Of a DNA stretch of 64,000 nucleotides, positions 1-6,544 are shown one piece after another. This stretch comes from Nocardia sputorum. Lineage in GTDB: Bacteria > Actinomycetota > Actinomycetes > Mycobacteriales > Mycobacteriaceae. Position 1 is the first letter of the stretch. Every line of letters starts with the position of its first letter. A model generated the notes under the pieces. That model searched no databases and was not told where the DNA came from. It worked only from the letters and a program-made list of their open reading frames with translations. The translations under genes were made by a program, and so were the position numbers. The DNA lies in contig NZ_AP026978.1 in NCBI RefSeq assembly GCF_027924405.1, forward strand, positions 4,278,001 to 4,342,000, written 5' to 3'.

Positions 1-573
1 CGCGGTTATTTGTGTCACCTCTGGGGTGTCGACAGGAAGCGGATGGCATGCGCAGCCGGGCACCGGCAGGAACGGGTGGCGGGAGACCGTGAGGTCGGCC
101 AAATCGATGATGAGCAAGGCACGGACGGTTCTCGGCTGTCGCCCGGTCGCGCAGCGTTGGTACTCGTCTGCCACGAGGACCGCCACGAGCTTGCCTGCTT
201 GCCGCGTCAGCCATCGCGAGGGCTGGTCTTCCAGCGCGGCTCGGTGTTCCCGGATCAGACGCGCATAGATATCGCGCTCGACCCTGGCTTCGGTCCGGCG
301 CACGTCCGCACAACGCGGACACCCCGGTTCACCGGGCAGCTTCATTGGGCCGATGATGACCCGGCCGAGTTCGGTGTGAACCCCGAGTTGGGGTCGGTCG
401 CCGGCAGCGTCGAGGTGTGTGCTCGCCCATTTGTCGCTGACTGTGAACAAGACCGAGGGCGATGCGACGTTCATCAAATCGGCGAGCTCTGCGCGGACCG
501 CATCGGCGAGCACCCCGTCGCCGCGGACCTCCGCTACGAGCGGTGAATTTTCCGTGGTAACAGGGTTCTTCAT
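1..573 (-). CDS. TOMM cyclodehydratase / leader-peptide-binding protein (partial, runs off left edge)
   Basis: An open frame runs from ATG at 573 to base 1 (191 codons) without a stop. It contains the paired cysteine motifs of the E1-like, leader-binding cyclodehydratase domain of azole-forming RiPP pathways: GCPRC about 85 residues in, and a later HPFLPVPGCACHPLP segment. In the family this domain binds the precursor leader and delivers the core to a YcaO protein, which cyclises Cys/Ser/Thr to azolines; it is often fused to YcaO, so the missing C-terminus may hold YcaO. The start overlaps the SagB stop by 4 bp (ATGA), so it is the last visible gene of the precursor operon. The frame and motifs are seen directly. 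The YcaO fusion is inference and cannot be checked here. Confidence 0.8.
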   Translation of the reverse strand, partial: MKNPVTTENSPLVAEVRGDGVLADAVRAELADLMNVASPSVLFTVSDKWASTHLDAAGDRPQLGVHTELGRVIIGPMKLPGEPGCPRCADVRRTEARVERDIYARLIREHRAALEDQPSRWLTRQAGKLVAVLVADEYQRCATGRQPRTVRALLIIDLADLTVSRHPFLPVPGCACHPLPVDTPEVTQITA

Positions 574-1955
574 GTCGAATTCTCCCGAGATCGTTGTGCG
601 GTGCCGACGACCATGGAACCGATGCCGCACAACTGCCATGGAGCGCGGCGCGTGGCTTCGGCGAGCGCAGCGATGTCGACCGGACCCCATGCCAAGGCCC
701 CCAGCCCGAGCGCTGTCGCTACGAGATACAGGTTCTGTGTCAGAACACCGGCATTGCGGAGCATCAGGGAGTAGCCGATCTGCGCGTATTTGCGCAGTAC
801 GGAATCCTCTGCGGCGACGATCAGCAGCGCCTGCGGCGTGGCCCCACCGATCGTGGGGCCGATCGGCCGGAGAAACTGCGCGAGCGCAGGGTGCTCGCCC
901 GTTGTGACCGGACACAATGTGTGATCGACCGGACGGTAGTGATAGATGCCTTGCTCAATACCGGTGACCGCACGCGCCACCAGGTAGATCTCGATCTCGT
1001 AAGCCGCGCCGCCGGACGGGTAGGGGCGGCTGAGCTGAGCCGTCCGCGTGCGGTCGCGGGCTCCTGCAGCTCGAAACAGTAGTTCGCCGAGCTGGGTCAC
1101 CGTGACCGGGTGCGCGTCATCGAATCGGCGGCACGATCGGCGATCCTCGAGTGCTTCGGTCAGCGTCATATCGAGCTCTCGCAAGGACCGTAGATCCGGT
1201 TCGTGCAGCTTGATCGACTTATCCGTGGCGGGCGGTGGCCGAACCGGCTCCTCGCGTGCCGACGTGGTCGCGGCGAATGCTTCGGCATGCCAACCACGCC
1301 CGCTCAAGGAACTGCGGTGATGGAACCACAGTTCGTGAGCGCTCCACGGGGGCTCGTCCGAGGACGCGTCCGCCTCTGATAGCCGCGGACGGAGATGCTT
1401 CGACCAGGCGAGGTCGGCGCGGACATGATCGGCGACCGGAGCCGGGATCCCTGCCCGCGACGGAAGGAGCAGCAGTGCCGCGATCCGTACATCGTGTAGT
1501 CGGATATCGCACCAGGACGTCGGATTCTCCGAGACCAGATGCTCATGGTGGCGTCGCACGATGGTGTATTTCGACAGCTCGAGTTCTTCGGCCCGGGGCC
1601 GGAATGCGGAGGGCCGATCGAACGGCACCATGGTGTACAGCGGTGCACCCTCCCAGTCGACGGTGACGGCGAGAAGCCCTCGTGCCCAAAACGACCGGAG
1701 GACTGCTCGGACCTCCGCACCGTGCATGCGGGTGAGTTCGTCCACTGTGTGCGCGCCATGGGCGAGGGTGCGCAGCACTTCGGTTCGTGCGCGGACCCCA
1801 AGCGGAAGTGGGTGGATTCGTGGCCACGCGATCAGCGCAACAATATCTCCGCTCTTGTTGCCGGCGGACAACCCGGGGCGCAAGCAGTAGCGCTCACGGA
1901 GCTCAGCGGCGAACGGGCGGTCGGTGGCTGTCCATCCCGGAGAAGGTGCCGTCAC
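570..1955 (-). CDS. SagB-type dehydrogenase (azoline to azole oxidase)
   Basis: 461 residues from GTG at 1955. This start overlaps the upstream stop by 4 bp (GTGA); a longer frame up to 2174 lies wholly inside the neighbour and is not used. Residues about 1-240 form the poorly conserved N-terminal domain usual in SagB-like proteins. About 255-450 is a nitroreductase-fold FMN domain with DRRSCRRF, YPSGGAAYEIEIYL and a GVLTQNLYLVATALGLG helix. The family uses FMN to oxidise thiazolines/oxazolines to aromatic azoles. The context (LanB, SpaB_C protein, cyclodehydratase, precursor) fits a thiopeptide-like pathway in the cytoplasm. It most likely aromatises the single Cys48 of the adjacent precursor; that substrate assignment is inference. 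Confidence 0.85.
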   Translation of the reverse strand: MTAPSPGWTATDRPFAAELRERYCLRPGLSAGNKSGDIVALIAWPRIHPLPLGVRARTEVLRTLAHGAHTVDELTRMHGAEVRAVLRSFWARGLLAVTVDWEGAPLYTMVPFDRPSAFRPRAEELELSKYTIVRRHHEHLVSENPTSWCDIRLHDVRIAALLLLPSRAGIPAPVADHVRADLAWSKHLRPRLSEADASSDEPPWSAHELWFHHRSSLSGRGWHAEAFAATTSAREEPVRPPPATDKSIKLHEPDLRSLRELDMTLTEALEDRRSCRRFDDAHPVTVTQLGELLFRAAGARDRTRTAQLSRPYPSGGAAYEIEIYLVARAVTGIEQGIYHYRPVDHTLCPVTTGEHPALAQFLRPIGPTIGGATPQALLIVAAEDSVLRKYAQIGYSLMLRNAGVLTQNLYLVATALGLGALAWGPVDIAALAEATRRAPWQLCGIGSMVVGTAQRSRENST

Positions 1956-2920
1956 GAGCGAACTCCCACCAATTCGCCGAGCAACCGCTGGACCAGATGT
2001 CGCAGATAATGTTCCTCGTGGGGTGCCACGCCGATGCGGTTGCAAAACAGGTGCGCGCAGACATCGAGGATCGGCAAGGCTGCGCATGACGTGGTCGCGG
2101 ACACCGGAAGTTCCAGTGGTGCAGCGGCTTCTATCGCGGTCAGGTCGGCGGCGAGTTCGGTGACGGTGTCCCACCAGCGAGGAAGGGTGGAGCCGGGGGC
2201 AGCGATGACGTCGCGAACCACCTCGATGAGCCTGCCCCGCTGTCCGGTGTACCGTTCGTGGAGCAGTGCGTCATAGTCGGCGGCGACAGGGCGGAAGCTA
2301 TCCCACGGATGGTTCACCGCCCATGCGTGCAGGCTGGTGGCGTCGCGGGTCGCGGCGAGCCACGACTGCAGAATCGCGACCAAGGCGACCGCGTTGAGCT
2401 GCCCATCGGACGGAGCGGCGCTCACGATTGCTGTCGCGATTCGGCTGGATCGGCCGAAATGCTGCTCGACCGCGACGATGGCTCGTCCGGTGCCGTACCT
2501 GTCGTGTTCTCGTGCGTACTCGATGAACCGCACCGATTGATTGGGAAACAGTGTGTCCGAGAAGGTTTGCGCGCCTTCACGGGCCGCGAGCCGGTGCGCG
2601 TACGAGCGGTAGTCGCGCTGGGACAAGTGAGTGCGCGACGGGTTGACTTCGAAGAAGGTAGTCGCAGCGGAGAGAACGCCGCGGCGTATCGGGCCGGCAG
2701 CGACGCCGTGGGCAGGCAACAGCCGCAAGCGCACATGCGGACCGCCATCCCAGTAGCGGAGATAGAACCAATCCCTGATCGAGCCACCGCTCGAAAGCTC
2801 CTGGGTGAGTGGAGCGACGAGATCGGTGAGAACCGTGGTCAACGAGCCGTGATAGAAGATGTGCGCACTGACCCACGATGACGCCGCGGTTCGATCTGCC
2901 GAGAACAGTCGGCTTGTCAT
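1952..2920 (-). CDS. Thiopeptide-type bacteriocin biosynthesis domain protein (SpaB_C-like)
   Basis: 322 residues from ATG at 2920, which overlaps the LanB stop (ATGA). It carries the signature FYLRYWDGGPHVRLRL near residue 50, followed by the helical body typical of the SpaB_C/thiopeptide-ocin family. In this family the domain is either the glutamate-elimination partner of a split LanB or the [4+2] pyridine synthase of thiopeptides. Only one such gene is visible, so which job it does, or whether a second copy lies left of the window, is unresolved. Its position directly after the split LanB favours elimination. The longer frame to 3604 is rejected because it covers LanB coding sequence. Confidence 0.85.
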   Translation of the reverse strand: MTSRLFSADRTAASSWVSAHIFYHGSLTTVLTDLVAPLTQELSSGGSIRDWFYLRYWDGGPHVRLRLLPAHGVAAGPIRRGVLSAATTFFEVNPSRTHLSQRDYRSYAHRLAAREGAQTFSDTLFPNQSVRFIEYAREHDRYGTGRAIVAVEQHFGRSSRIATAIVSAAPSDGQLNAVALVAILQSWLAATRDATSLHAWAVNHPWDSFRPVAADYDALLHERYTGQRGRLIEVVRDVIAAPGSTLPRWWDTVTELAADLTAIEAAAPLELPVSATTSCAALPILDVCAHLFCNRIGVAPHEEHYLRHLVQRLLGELVGVRS

Positions 2921-5565
2921 GGCCGGGGCCCAGCGGTAGGGAGTTCGATGACGTACTCCATGACGTGCCGCAGTTGAGAGTTCGCCAGGGGCAGGGGATC
3001 TGGAAGGGCTTCCTCGAGAACGATCTGCGGCGAATCGGGAAGATTCCGGAAGGCGTCGAGGGCGGCGATGATATTGCGGACGTCGATGTACAACGGTTTG
3101 CGGCGCTTGTCGAATACCTGCTCGGTCGTGAGATATGCCCGTACGAAGAACCGCTCGGGAAGCGCCAGTTCGTGCAGCCAACCGGACAGACGGAGCAGGA
3201 ATTGCGCGTCGGTTTCGGTGCGGTGGGGGCGCGGCACGAGGCCGGTATCGATGACCCACGCCTGCCGGCAAAGGACCACTGATCCGATGCTGACTCGAGG
3301 ATGCCGGCGCACGCCGGGAGCGATCTCCCGGCCGAAGGGAGCGAACGGCGTGACGACGGATGCCCGAAAGGAGTGGAAGGCGCCGAACCACAAACACAAT
3401 GTCCGCGCTGCGGACGGCAGCAGCCGCGTGTCCATCATGCCGTTGTGGACCGGAAGCACCTGAGTGCGCAGCGCAGCGGAGTGCAGGGTCAACCGGCGGG
3501 CGTCCAACCGAATCTGCAGATCGGACATCGGGATGCACTGCTCGGCACTGCGGCGCGGCGTCACGCCGGGGTAGGCGATCGCGTACGGAGCCGCTGGAGT
3601 GCACTGATTGAATGCTGCTCCGAATATTCCTTCGATTTCCGCGAAGACGACGCCGTCCGGGTTCTCGGGGCTGACCAGCGGCCGCGGATGGTGCCCGGCG
3701 CGCTCACGGAGGTGGTGGATACGCGAGCGGTTCCGCCCCCACCCGGGGTGGATTGCGTTCAGCACGAATCGGCACTTGCCTCCCGTGTGGTCCGGCTGGA
3801 CGTAGTAGGCCACTGACGCCGATCCAGCCATCTCTTCAGGCCATTGGGACGCGGAGGCGTACACCGTCTCCGGCGAGAGTTCGATGCCGCCGGGAGTCTG
3901 CCCGGCGCGCAGTGCGGCGAGCATCTGCTGGCGCACTGAATGCATATGACGCAGCCTCGGATGCTGCCAGGGTGTATCGGGGCGGAGCAGCAGGTCGACC
4001 TGACTGCGTATCGACGGCGCTGTGACCATCAGCCGGAGGTCCGCCTCGGCGGCACTGTCGATGTCACCTCGCTGCAGGATCTGTTGCAGGTGCAGGTGCG
4101 CTTCGACGAAGGGAACACTGCGATCATCACCGAAGGCATCGCACAACAGCTCATGTACGCAGACCCGGGTGACAGTCAGCGGATCAAGAGCGGTGACAAC
4201 GCGGTTCACCGCTAGGAGATCGTGCAACGGTTCGTCCCACTCCGCTGACGACGCCGGTACGGCCGTTGCGAGCACCGCTGTTTCGTGCACCGGGGACGAG
4301 GTGAGCACCGGCTCGATCGGCGGCAGGTGTAATCGGTTGCGGATTGCTTCCACACACTGGGCGGTCCGGTATGACCATCGCCGATGACCGATTACGTCAC
4401 CCGAGGCCGGTGGACTGGCGAGCAGCCGCGCCAGCGCTTGCAACTCAGCGGTCAAATCCCAAGTGGGATGATGTACCGACAACCACGACGACAGAGCCGT
4501 GACCGGGTCCACTGTGGTATCGGCTGCCGGGCCGTCCAGTATCAGCACATCGGCATCGATGAGCTTGCCGAAGAGCGCGGCTGCGCTGGAGCGGTCGATG
4601 CCGAGATGGTTCGACATATCCCGCACTGCCGCGTCGAGCGGACGTGCGGGGCGCGTCGCACCGAGTTCGGATACCACGGCGTCCACCAGCGGAGTCACCC
4701 GAACGGAGACGACCGCCTCCCGCTGTGTGACAAGGAGGATGTGCTCGCCGACCCGGGTCGCTGTGGGGTTGACCCGCACAGTCAGGTGCGGCCTGACCCG
4801 CGGGTGATCCGCTACTCTTGCCGCGATCGAGCCGATCAGCCGGGCTTCCAGGTCGACGACGAAAGCCGGTGCGAGGTTTTGGACTGGAGATGCTGTGGCG
4901 TCGCCGGTCCAATCGACCTCCGCCGCAATGGTGAAACCACTGTAGAGTGTTGTTTTCGTCGCCGCACGGACGACGAATTTGCAAACGCGTTCCAGTTTAC
5001 GGCGTTTGGGCGCTATGCCTCTGGCAAGCCAGAGTTCGACCTCGGCGGCAAGGGGCTCGCTGCTGGCCGCGATACCGCGGCGAACACAGTCGTAGCCGGC
5101 CAGTCGAGCAAGCACCGTGCTCAGCCGCTCCCGCTCCGCCGCGACGGTGTTTTCCAGTTTCGAGAGGGCATCATGCAGCTCACCGAGCGTTTGCTGCCAG
5201 AGCTCGACCTCGGCCACGAGTCGCGCCGGAATCGCAGTCCGAAGCTCCGGATTCCATTCGTCCCCGCTGAGTCGTCGCTGATTGTGAATCGACCGTCTCA
5301 GGCCGATGAGTCGGCGACGACGAATGTCGCTCGGGGGCAGCACGCCTATGACCTCGTACAGCTGGTCGCCCAGCACTACACCTCGGCCGGTGAGCGCCCT
5401 TTGCAAGCCGTGAATCTGTGCGAGCGCAGCGTAGGTGGCGTTCGAGCGGAGGCCGGTGAGCGCCTCGGCAGGCAATGCCGCGATCCTGGCGATCGCCAGT
5501 GGGCGAAGCGTCGCGGTTCCGCCTCGAGTGGACCTCGAAGGTTGTTCGCGCACCTGGAAAGACAT
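2917..5565 (-). CDS. LanB-type dehydratase, glutamylation subunit
   Basis: 882 residues from ATG at 5565, preceded by a GAGGACGGGG ribosome-binding stretch; an in-frame ATG at 5628 lies very close to the upstream hairpin and is less likely. Features of the lantibiotic-dehydratase N-domain include an N-terminal arm near FQVREQPSRS, KFVVRAATKTTLYSGF around residue 220, and YYVQPDHTGGKCRFVLN in the last third. No SpaB_C domain is fused; that domain is the next gene, as in thiopeptide clusters. The family glutamylates Ser/Thr of the core using glutamyl-tRNA, giving dehydroalanine/dehydrobutyrine after elimination. The presumed substrate is the 50-residue peptide 120 bp upstream. Confidence 0.87.
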   Translation of the reverse strand: MSFQVREQPSRSTRGGTATLRPLAIARIAALPAEALTGLRSNATYAALAQIHGLQRALTGRGVVLGDQLYEVIGVLPPSDIRRRRLIGLRRSIHNQRRLSGDEWNPELRTAIPARLVAEVELWQQTLGELHDALSKLENTVAAERERLSTVLARLAGYDCVRRGIAASSEPLAAEVELWLARGIAPKRRKLERVCKFVVRAATKTTLYSGFTIAAEVDWTGDATASPVQNLAPAFVVDLEARLIGSIAARVADHPRVRPHLTVRVNPTATRVGEHILLVTQREAVVSVRVTPLVDAVVSELGATRPARPLDAAVRDMSNHLGIDRSSAAALFGKLIDADVLILDGPAADTTVDPVTALSSWLSVHHPTWDLTAELQALARLLASPPASGDVIGHRRWSYRTAQCVEAIRNRLHLPPIEPVLTSSPVHETAVLATAVPASSAEWDEPLHDLLAVNRVVTALDPLTVTRVCVHELLCDAFGDDRSVPFVEAHLHLQQILQRGDIDSAAEADLRLMVTAPSIRSQVDLLLRPDTPWQHPRLRHMHSVRQQMLAALRAGQTPGGIELSPETVYASASQWPEEMAGSASVAYYVQPDHTGGKCRFVLNAIHPGWGRNRSRIHHLRERAGHHPRPLVSPENPDGVVFAEIEGIFGAAFNQCTPAAPYAIAYPGVTPRRSAEQCIPMSDLQIRLDARRLTLHSAALRTQVLPVHNGMMDTRLLPSAARTLCLWFGAFHSFRASVVTPFAPFGREIAPGVRRHPRVSIGSVVLCRQAWVIDTGLVPRPHRTETDAQFLLRLSGWLHELALPERFFVRAYLTTEQVFDKRRKPLYIDVRNIIAALDAFRNLPDSPQIVLEEALPDPLPLANSQLRHVMEYVIELPTAGPRP

Positions 5566-5637
5566 GATCGCCCCGTCCTCATCGCTCAGATGGAATTCGT
5601 ACTCGGTGCCGTGACGAAGAAGTAGCAAGTCGGCAGA

Positions 5638-5666
5638 CCCGGTCCCGCTTCGCGAGCGGGACCGGG
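5638..5666 (-). terminator. 12-bp perfect hairpin between precursor and LanB (attenuator-like)
   Basis: CCCGGTCCCGCT, a 5-nt loop, then AGCGGGACCGGG form a perfect 12-bp stem. It begins 18 bp past the precursor stop and ends well before the LanB start. There is no U-run, so full termination is uncertain. A partial terminator or RNA-stabilising hairpin here would raise precursor over enzyme levels, a common layout in RiPP operons (inference). Confidence 0.7.
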
Positions 5667-5684
5667 CTTCGATCTCGGCTGCTC

Positions 5685-5837
5685 TTACGAGCTGCAGCCG
5701 CCACCGGTGTTTCCATCGACCGAGGCGACCGGCTGGCTGCCGTGCGGCGCGGCGTCGCTGGTCAGGGTCTCCACCTGAAGCTCGTCGAGGAGATCGACAT
5801 CGGCGGACAGGCGGCTGAGGTTGTTGTGTGCGGGCAT
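5685..5837 (-). CDS. Putative thiopeptide-like RiPP precursor peptide, 50 aa
   Basis: ATG at 5837 follows a strong GGGGGTGA ribosome-binding site; TAA is at 5687-5685. The leader is acidic and hydrophobic, with LDELQVETLT at residues 17-26, resembling thiazolylpeptide leaders. The C-terminal part has S39, V-D-G-N-T-G-G-G, then C48, S49, S50. S39 and S49 are ten residues apart, with the only Cys immediately before S49; this matches the spacing of the two serines that build the pyridine of thiopeptides and the azole that flanks it. It is much poorer in Cys/Ser/Thr than known thiopeptide cores and contains Asp and Asn. It lies directly upstream of LanB in the same orientation. Leader cleavage site and final structure are unknown. 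Confidence 0.8.
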   Translation of the reverse strand: MPAHNNLSRLSADVDLLDELQVETLTSDAAPHGSQPVASVDGNTGGGCSS

Positions 5838-5944
5838 GATTTCACCCCCTCTTGCGTCTACCGCAGCGGTGACACACGGCAGGGCCGTGAGTGGGCATTG
5901 GCTACGTCATGCTGCAGATCTTCTGCCGCCCCCGCTGCTATTCG

Positions 5945-5974
5945 ATAGCATGACATTTCATATGCTATAGCATA
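5945..5974. promoter_or_regulatory. AT-rich operator: three ATAGCAT half-sites
   Basis: A perfect 14-bp palindrome TATGCTATAGCATA (5961-5974) is preceded by another ATAGCAT half-site at 5945-5951, also inverted relative to 5962-5968. It is a conspicuous AT island in a very GC-rich region, between the divergent precursor (start 5837) and XRE gene (start 6140). It likely binds that XRE regulator and overlaps the promoter(s) of the RiPP operon. Binding and the promoter positions are inference. Confidence 0.6.
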
Positions 5975-6139
5975 GAGCGCCGATTGGGAACCCCCGGCGA
6001 TGCAGGACCGGACATCACTTCGGGCACCCATGCGGTCACTCGCCTAGGATTCGACCGCGGCGAACGCTTCCGCTGTCGAACTCCGACCGATGCGCCCACG
6101 TCTCGGGAATCACAGGCCCTGCGCAAGAATGGACATGAC

Positions 6140-6544
6140 ATGCCGGTCAACGAACATCCGACAGAGAGACCCGGTTTCGCCGAGCGACTGAGAGTGCTCC
6201 TCGATCAGTCGGCCACCGACCCCGAGGCGCGGATCACCGTGAAGGAACTGTCGCGACGCACGAGAGCGGCAGGCGCTCCCGTGTCGGAGCCGTATCTGTA
6301 TCAGCTTCTGGACGGCCGTCGTAAGAACCCATCGCTGGCCGCTGTGCGCGCGATCGCAGCGGCGCTCGGGGTGCCGGCCGCTTACTTCGTCGACAGCGCC
6401 GAGCCCGAGTCGTTACCCCGCCAACCCGCGAGTAGCGACCTGGCCGATCTGGAGGATGAACTCCGACAGTTGAACCCCGAAAACTTCCGTCAGGTACGCG
6501 AATTCGTCGCTTTCCTCCTCGCCAGGCAGCGACTTCGAGACTGA
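6140..6544 (+). CDS. XRE-family transcriptional regulator (EspR-like), likely RiPP cluster regulator
   Basis: 134 residues from ATG at 6140; the longer frame from 5984 would run across the operator region and is not used. Residues about 10-75 form an extended helix-turn-helix with the recognition part PVSEPYLYQLLDGRRKNPSL and a following ALGVPAAYFVD, the arrangement seen in EspR-like actinobacterial regulators. The C-terminal helix (LRQLNPENFRQVREFVAFLL) probably dimerises. It is divergent from the precursor operon across a palindromic AT-rich site, so local control of the peptide cluster is a reasonable inference. No ligand-binding or kinase-target domain is visible. Confidence 0.8.
   Translation: MPVNEHPTERPGFAERLRVLLDQSATDPEARITVKELSRRTRAAGAPVSEPYLYQLLDGRRKNPSLAAVRAIAAALGVPAAYFVDSAEPESLPRQPASSDLADLEDELRQLNPENFRQVREFVAFLLARQRLRD

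Follow-up and report, generated by a model that had tools for sequence, protein, structure and literature searches.

A gene cluster of about 12.8 kb in Nocardia sputorum encodes a thiopeptide-type enzyme set for a ribosomally synthesised and post-translationally modified peptide (RiPP), and no [4+2] pyridine synthase is detected for it. On balance, we read it as a cluster of thiopeptide lineage that has lost, or is without, this synthase and that would make a linear peptide amide containing a single thiazole and dehydroalanine (Dha). The cluster (genes A to K) straddles the left edge of the window, the 64,000-nucleotide stretch C1:4278001-4342000 of a genome assembled as one contig of 7.43 Mb. 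The prefix C1 marks genome numbering; positions without it follow the window. The cluster is real, conserved and rare, and it belongs within the thiopeptide/goadsporin kind. The product class may still be new, as a sequence-only reading of the window had proposed, but a derived form of a known kind is better supported than an unrelated class; the shape of the product has probably not been described so far. Statements from PMC4525488, PMC5303826, PMC7210931, PMC8120280, PMC9247985 and PMC10676384 follow passages of those papers.

A thiopeptide-type enzyme set

Gene I (2917..5565, minus strand; a TTG at 5628 may be the start instead) encodes a LanB-type, TbtB-like Ser/Thr glutamylation enzyme whose N-domain matches PF04738 (E=5.4e-32). 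Gene H (1952..2920, minus strand) encodes a stand-alone SpaB_C protein of the TbtC glutamate-elimination type (PF14028, E=2.2e-41; TIGR03891, E=3.4e-26), and together the two form a predicted split LanB pair for glutamylation and elimination. The SagB-type azoline dehydrogenase of gene G (570..1955, minus strand; 461 aa) scores 116.3 bits with TIGR03605 (E=1e-33), above the cut-off of 78.4. Gene F (C1:4276651-4278573, minus strand) encodes a TbtG-like E1-YcaO cyclodehydratase fusion of 640 aa that lies above the cut-offs of both TIGR03882 (E=1.7e-32) and TIGR03604 (E=3.2e-91). A leader-binding cyclodehydratase had been claimed from the window; it is present, but only its N-terminal part lies there (1..573), and the gene runs on leftwards to include the YcaO domain sought on that side (PF02624, E=3.6e-77). 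Consecutive genes overlap by 4 bp: LanB/SpaB_C at 2917-2920, SpaB_C/SagB at 1952-1955 and SagB/cyclodehydratase at 570-573.

Gene A (C1:4271704-4273695, plus strand; 663 aa) is a putative ThiF-like (TbtF) leader-binding partner. It matches TIGR03882 weakly (E=0.03); of 11 synthase-bearing loci or genomes, 8 have a homologue with about 25-34% identity. These family matches agree with the earlier claim of enzymes for dehydrated, azole-containing peptides, and they support a predicted dehydrating, azole-forming route of the thiopeptide type.

The pyridine synthase is not detected

Thiopeptide pathways require a ThiF-like leader binder, a split LanB and a [4+2] enzyme (PMC8120280); ring closure and leader release are both the work of this last enzyme, the pyridine synthase (PMC7210931). 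A class-wide search with LanB gave 25 matches besides its own, in 23 of 393 other genomes; 20 of these loci were fetched and their neighbourhoods read. Nine carry two SpaB_C genes, one of them synthase-type (L076, L077, L079-L084, L086), ten carry one (L085, L087-L095), and the L078 stretch has none. In L076 and L077, the nearest by LanB, the order is LanB - TbtC - pyridine synthase - SagB - TbtF - cyclodehydratase - NosA-like. The order here is LanB - SpaB_C - SagB - cyclodehydratase - NosA-like, with nothing between the overlapping SpaB_C and SagB genes.

The sequence-only reading expected a second SpaB_C-type gene left of the window; none is found genome-wide other than the C-terminal part of a full-length LanB at 5.80 Mb, a distance of 1.5 Mb, which together with H makes up the only two places where PF14028 matches the genome. 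That LanB frame of 1120 aa (C1:5797389-5800340; L007, L009; PF04738 617 bits, PF14028 177 bits) is probably a separate class I lanthipeptide locus. With the pyridine synthase model NF045556, H scores 64 bits against a cut-off of 325. The synthases of thiopeptide-type clusters in two other Nocardia genomes, G459 and G414, score 443 and 134 bits and their elimination enzymes 62 and 82, so that only the G459 synthase exceeds the cut-off among the scores compared. A profile of 11 synthases, run at E up to 10, finds only the elimination enzymes in N. sputorum (50 bits) and in the draft genome of Nocardia sp. CY41 (55 bits), which carries the same cluster; the G459 and G414 synthases reach 490 and 311 bits as rows of that profile, which leaves NF045556 as the only independent control.

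In a tree of 33 SpaB_C rows, 22 elimination rows, H among them, split from 11 synthase rows at 100/100. Among the elimination rows, H groups with 11 others, all from synthase-bearing clusters, in a clade of 12 (98/97); lone SpaB_C proteins form a separate group of 8 rows (100/99). In the LanB tree (18 rows), gene I sits in an 11-row clade at 96/97, and the root split is weak (75/68). The SpaB_C tree omits L092 and L093, the LanB tree also L082 (a frame with a stop), L087, L089, L091 and L031, and goadsporin sequences are not among the rows of either. A His-Asn-Arg signature is present in all 22 elimination rows, H included, and in none of the 11 synthase rows. On tree and residues, H is rejected as a pyridine synthase. 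Since no [4+2] enzyme is detected in either genome, the cluster is not a thiopeptide cluster by the criteria of PMC8120280 and PMC7210931, and a classical thiopeptide is rejected. The undetected synthase is the main evidence; the substrate alone does not decide.

A precursor with one cysteine

Gene J (5685..5837, minus strand; ATG at 5837, preceded by GAGGGGGTGA) encodes the 50-aa peptide MPAHNNLSRLSADVDLLDELQVETLTSDAAPHGSQPVASVDGNTGGGCSS, the best candidate precursor. Residues 1-38 are the predicted leader and residues 39-50 the predicted core, SVDGNTGGGCSS; the border is placed before Ser39 because of the alignment with thiopeptide leaders (LQVETLTS against LTVESLTS, then HG...A/S, the stroke marking the border). 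Ser1 and a C-S-S tail are retained in this core, which has a single Cys (Cys10) and no Ser-Cys step; this supports the earlier view that it cannot give a classical polyazole thiopeptide. J matches no NCBIfam or Pfam model; the L077 precursor is likewise without a Pfam match, and a missing match alone is not decisive. The sole candidate (1 of 1) from a search of 5.8 billion proteins was J. No other small open reading frame in L012 or in the 28 kb of L004 and L005 passed a filter that demands a tail rich in C/S/T or else a leader motif, and that may overlook other frames; no second, Cys-rich precursor nearby, or Cys/Ser-rich alternative left of the window, was found in this way.

An alignment of whole precursors by MAFFT misplaced the J leader, so leader likeness was assessed by pairwise shuffling, with 1000 shuffles against each of the peptides of 12 relatives. 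L085, L087 and L088, non-thiopeptide peptides, were entered whole; the comparison excluded L081 and one of the two L086 peptides. The real score is reached by 0 shuffles for L082, 5 each for L077 and L078, 9 for L080, 24 for L079, 42 for L024, and 65-300 for L076, L086, L030, L085, L087 and L088. The leader thus resembles thiopeptide leaders, with 0 of 1000 for the best relative, a likeness that the sequence-only reading did not mention.

Beyond core residue 1, a Ser-Cys step is found in all nine synthase-bearing relatives with a found precursor, a count that omits L083 and L084 (synthase, no precursor found) and L078 (precursor, no SpaB_C in 20 kb). It is absent in J, which has Gly-Cys-Ser-Ser, and this fits a loss of the ring partner.

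Precursors of L076, L077, L082 and the nocardithiocin-like L024 lie above the cut-off of NF033399, the thiomuracin/GE37468 family. The system is linked to clusters of this type by sequence, by the trees and by the likeness of its leader. L076, L077 and L082 share with it LanB, TbtC, SagB, TbtF, E1-YcaO and Ser1; the NosA homologue is shared by L076 and L077, and leader likeness is clear for L077 and L082, not for L076. Unlike the cluster here, they have a pyridine synthase gene between those for TbtC and SagB, and their cores hold 2-5 Cys and contain Ser-Cys steps. The cluster of G459, which appears to be nocardithiocin-type, has the same LanB-SpaB_C-SagB-cyclodehydratase order (27-40% identity), but encodes the synthase scoring 443 bits and a six-Cys core. 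Its precursor is as long as that of nocardithiocin, 59 aa (PMC4654471).

A NosA homologue with a predicted role at the C-terminus

Gene E (C1:4276254-4276637, minus strand; 127 aa) encodes a predicted homologue of the terminal-amide synthase NosA. Alone, it matches NosA (PDB 4za1) over residues 6-66 (E=9.6e-7); a four-sequence profile, made with its counterparts in CY41, L076 and L077, does so at E=2.2e-25. NosA cleaves a terminal dehydroalanine, leaving an amide, and needs K49 and E101 for activity (PMC4525488). Counted on the alignments, these are K43 and E96 in E, and both are invariant in all four sequences. Homologues of E occur in three lineages (N. sputorum with CY41, L076 and L077) among 26 stretches, and all three cores end in Ser, as do those of 2 (L030, L086) of the 7 other relatives for which both a synthase and a precursor were found. 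This pattern supports a predicted removal of the C-terminal Ser12 by E.

Conservation and rarity

The cluster locus is 91-93% identical at the DNA level in CY41. The precursor is 100% identical, with 0 residue and 2 silent base differences over 50 codons: the peptide is kept beside the same genes in another genome, contrary to the lack of such homologues that the sequence-only reading had named as speaking against it. Protein identity is 87-93% for A (residues 29-663), B, C, F, G, H, I and K (88% for K) and 97-98% for D and E. In the nine genes compared (B-I and K; A was not in the comparison), the non-synonymous rate (dN) is 0.007-0.066, the five minus-strand enzymes lying at 0.014-0.066, and the synonymous rate (dS) 0.114-0.22. 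dN is below dS in all nine (dN/dS about 0.06-0.41). The dS of J is 0.056, below this range; because silent changes are also few, the unchanged precursor taken alone is modest support for selection on the peptide.

Relatives this close are few. Besides LanB itself, a protein search with it (7997 scored candidates) returned one entry, of 732 aa and 90% identical, from Nocardia sp. NPDC004573; among 401 family genomes LanB is found once, as itself. A contig scan with patterns from variable stretches of the cyclodehydratase, which missed distant relatives, gave CY41 alone. Cyclodehydratase matches occur in 11 of 150 Nocardia genomes, above 42% identity only in N. sputorum and CY41; of the nine other loci, two (L024 and L030) have LanB and SpaB_C by tblastn. 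No paper describing this cluster turned up in the literature, judged by titles and abstract openings.

Proposed pathway

From gene content and conserved residues, the following steps can be proposed. The TbtF-like A and the E1-YcaO protein F would bind the leader and convert Cys10 to a thiazoline, which SagB would oxidise to a thiazole. The split LanB pair would glutamylate and eliminate Ser11, Ser12, probably Ser1 and perhaps Thr6. E would then remove the C-terminal Dha12, leaving Dha11 as an amide. A protease outside genes A-K would cut off the leader, and a DrrA-like pump would export the product. The core boundary and the linear form of the product are predictions of the same kind. Azoles precede dehydration in thiomuracin (PMC10676384) and in goadsporin (PMC5303826), and for this reason the thiazole is proposed to form before Ser11 and Ser12 are dehydrated; lactazole biosynthesis is described as more cooperative (PMC7210931). 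No LanC-type cyclase is present among genes A-K; no LanC search of the genome was made.

The pump would consist of gene C (C1:4274505-4275497, plus strand; 330 aa), an ABC ATPase above the DrrA cut-off (TIGR01188, 323 bits), and gene D (C1:4275494-4276249, plus strand), an ABC-2 permease that matches PF01061 and falls below the DrrB cut-off. For goadsporin, cleavage of the leader is tentatively assigned to a transporter that carries a peptidase domain (PMC5303826), unlike gene C, which is a plain ATPase.

Several points weigh against a linear product of a thiopeptide lineage. No leader protease candidate is found among genes A-K. Leader likeness is clear for 4 of 12 peptides (0-9 shuffles) and not for the other 8 (24-300), among which is L076 (65 of 1000), one of the two nearest by LanB. 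Within the 12-row clade, the nearest neighbour of H, L082, is weakly supported (87/60), and L030, an elimination enzyme of a synthase-bearing cluster, lies outside it beside the long-branched L031 (87/81). The positive controls of the 11-synthase profile are not independent of it, and the G414 synthase falls short of the NF045556 cut-off, so a more divergent synthase would be missed. Finally, the C13A variant of lactazole still becomes a thiopeptide, and the lactazole synthase may need only an azole-Dha motif (PMC7210931), which Cys10-Ser11 of J would supply; the Ser-Cys argument is weak.

Alternative readings

The cluster could instead specify a goadsporin-like linear azole peptide, ancestrally pyridine-free, with no loss of a synthase. 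Goadsporin (GodD-H) is made with the same minimal set of cyclodehydratase, dehydrogenase and split LanB pair (PMC5303826, PMC8120280), and one SpaB_C gene with a cyclodehydratase is common, in 10 of 20 related loci. We nevertheless consider this origin unlikely: the SpaB_C and LanB trees, in which goadsporin itself is not included, group the cluster with synthase-bearing ones, and it includes a TbtF-like partner as well as a NosA homologue. The 19-residue goadsporin core has six azoles and two Dha (PMC5303826), whereas the core here has one Cys and is far poorer in modifiable residues. Neither the GodH acetyltransferase nor the GodB peptidase-domain transporter has a model match among genes A-K; the flanking genes were not scanned.

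A somewhat slimmer chance attaches to macrocyclisation between Ser1 and Ser11, either in a second reaction of the lone SpaB_C protein or by another protein such as B, to give a minimal one-thiazole thiopeptide with its last residue trimmed by the NosA homologue. In its favour, the core retains Ser1 and an azole-Dha motif (Cys10-Ser11), NosA-family enzymes occur in thiopeptide pathways (PMC4525488), and lactazole (PMC7210931) and pyritides (PMC9247985), which share the split LanB and Ser1, manage with few or no azoles. Both of these systems, however, use a [4+2] enzyme (PMC7210931, PMC9247985). Here both tree and residues mark H as an elimination enzyme, no other synthase-like place is found in the genome, and B has no SpaB_C model match at E up to 0.1.

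Only an outside chance is given to B having taken the place of the pyridine synthase, acting on the dehydrated thiazole peptide in a novel step of release or cyclisation, which would make a new RiPP class with a hybrid enzyme from nonribosomal peptide synthetases (NRPS). Gene B (C1:4273692-4274495, plus strand; 267 aa), which overlaps A by 4 bp and in this reading is co-translated with it, appears to encode part of an NRPS condensation/epimerisation domain as a separate protein. All three known members match the NRPS domain model TIGR01720 (best E=1.6e-7), B itself at E=0.004 and 17 bits, below the 74-bit cut-off; a B profile has only weak matches in the PDB, to the NRPS PvdL (E=0.017). Some match to B occurs in 147 of 150 Nocardia genomes. 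Among the matches listed, it is full-length only in N. sputorum and CY41, and the remaining ones are parts of open frames 954 to 6181 residues long, mostly above 3000, as in NRPS genes; B therefore looks like a free-standing C-terminal lobe of such a domain. The HHxxxDG motif presumably belongs to the half that B is without. The third member, from Nocardia sp. NPDC050710, is 61% identical, and the protein search with LanB returned no entry from that strain. The predicted structure of B (mean predicted local distance difference test score 37.9) is too poor for use. We know of no precedent for a stand-alone NRPS domain piece in a RiPP cluster, although no literature search aimed at this was made.

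A decaying, non-functional thiopeptide cluster would explain the undetected synthase and the few modifiable core residues, but is very improbable given frames intact and coupled in two species, dN below dS in nine genes and an unchanged precursor.

Regulatory elements and other loci

Between the precursor and LanB genes lies a hairpin (5638..5666, minus strand) with perfect 12-bp arms (5638-5649/5655-5666), a stem conserved in CY41 and a predicted energy of -31.5 kcal/mol (z -3.5; equal stability in 1 of 200 shuffles). It is possibly an attenuator or an RNA-processing stem. Gene K (6140..6544, plus strand), divergent from the operon, encodes an XRE-like helix-turn-helix regulator (PF13560, E=1.5e-6). 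An imperfect palindrome between the divergent genes (5938..5975; 14-nt arms 5938-5951/5962-5975, 86% complementary; 1 change in CY41) is a possible operator. The precursor, hairpin, split LanB, SpaB_C protein, SagB, 4-bp overlaps, divergent regulator and palindrome are all present as the sequence-only reading had described them.

Several other loci came to light. A second YcaO gene in the N. sputorum genome (C1:4940491-4942876; L006:5491-7876; PF02624, E=2.9e-55) marks a possible thioamide-forming locus; the protein directly before it we take, by eye, to be TfuA-like. In the Nocardia genome G484 (L031), a 42-aa peptide at L075:4464-4592 matches the nocathioamide precursor family (NF038395, E=3.4e-31). 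That genome shares with ours one SpaB_C gene, a related cyclodehydratase and the lack of a detected pyridine synthase; the peptide, a candidate precursor for the enzymes at L031, is of a different family from J. Five Nocardia genomes (L025-L029) have matches to the cyclodehydratase, SagB and the TbtF-like A, with no LanB or SpaB_C match in 20 kb, and carry another azole-type cluster. The lone-SpaB_C loci (L085, L087-L095) show at least two cyclodehydratase matches in 7 of 10, an ABC ATPase match in 8 and Ser/Thr/Cys-rich small peptides in 9; of two such peptides tested, one lies above the cut-offs of NF033400 and TIGR03892 and the other below. L078 (G765) is thiopeptide-like, with two LanB matches, the precursor core SDCGCWCCSCC and no SpaB_C match within the stretch. 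P450-like genes, recognised by eye, stand beside the G459 cluster.

A natural pathway that keeps the thiopeptide machinery and a NosA homologue without the ring-forming enzyme would let the evolution towards linear peptides be addressed. It raises the question of how the leader is removed without a pyridine synthase, which normally releases it at ring closure, and lets one ask whether dehydration acts on a core with a single azole.

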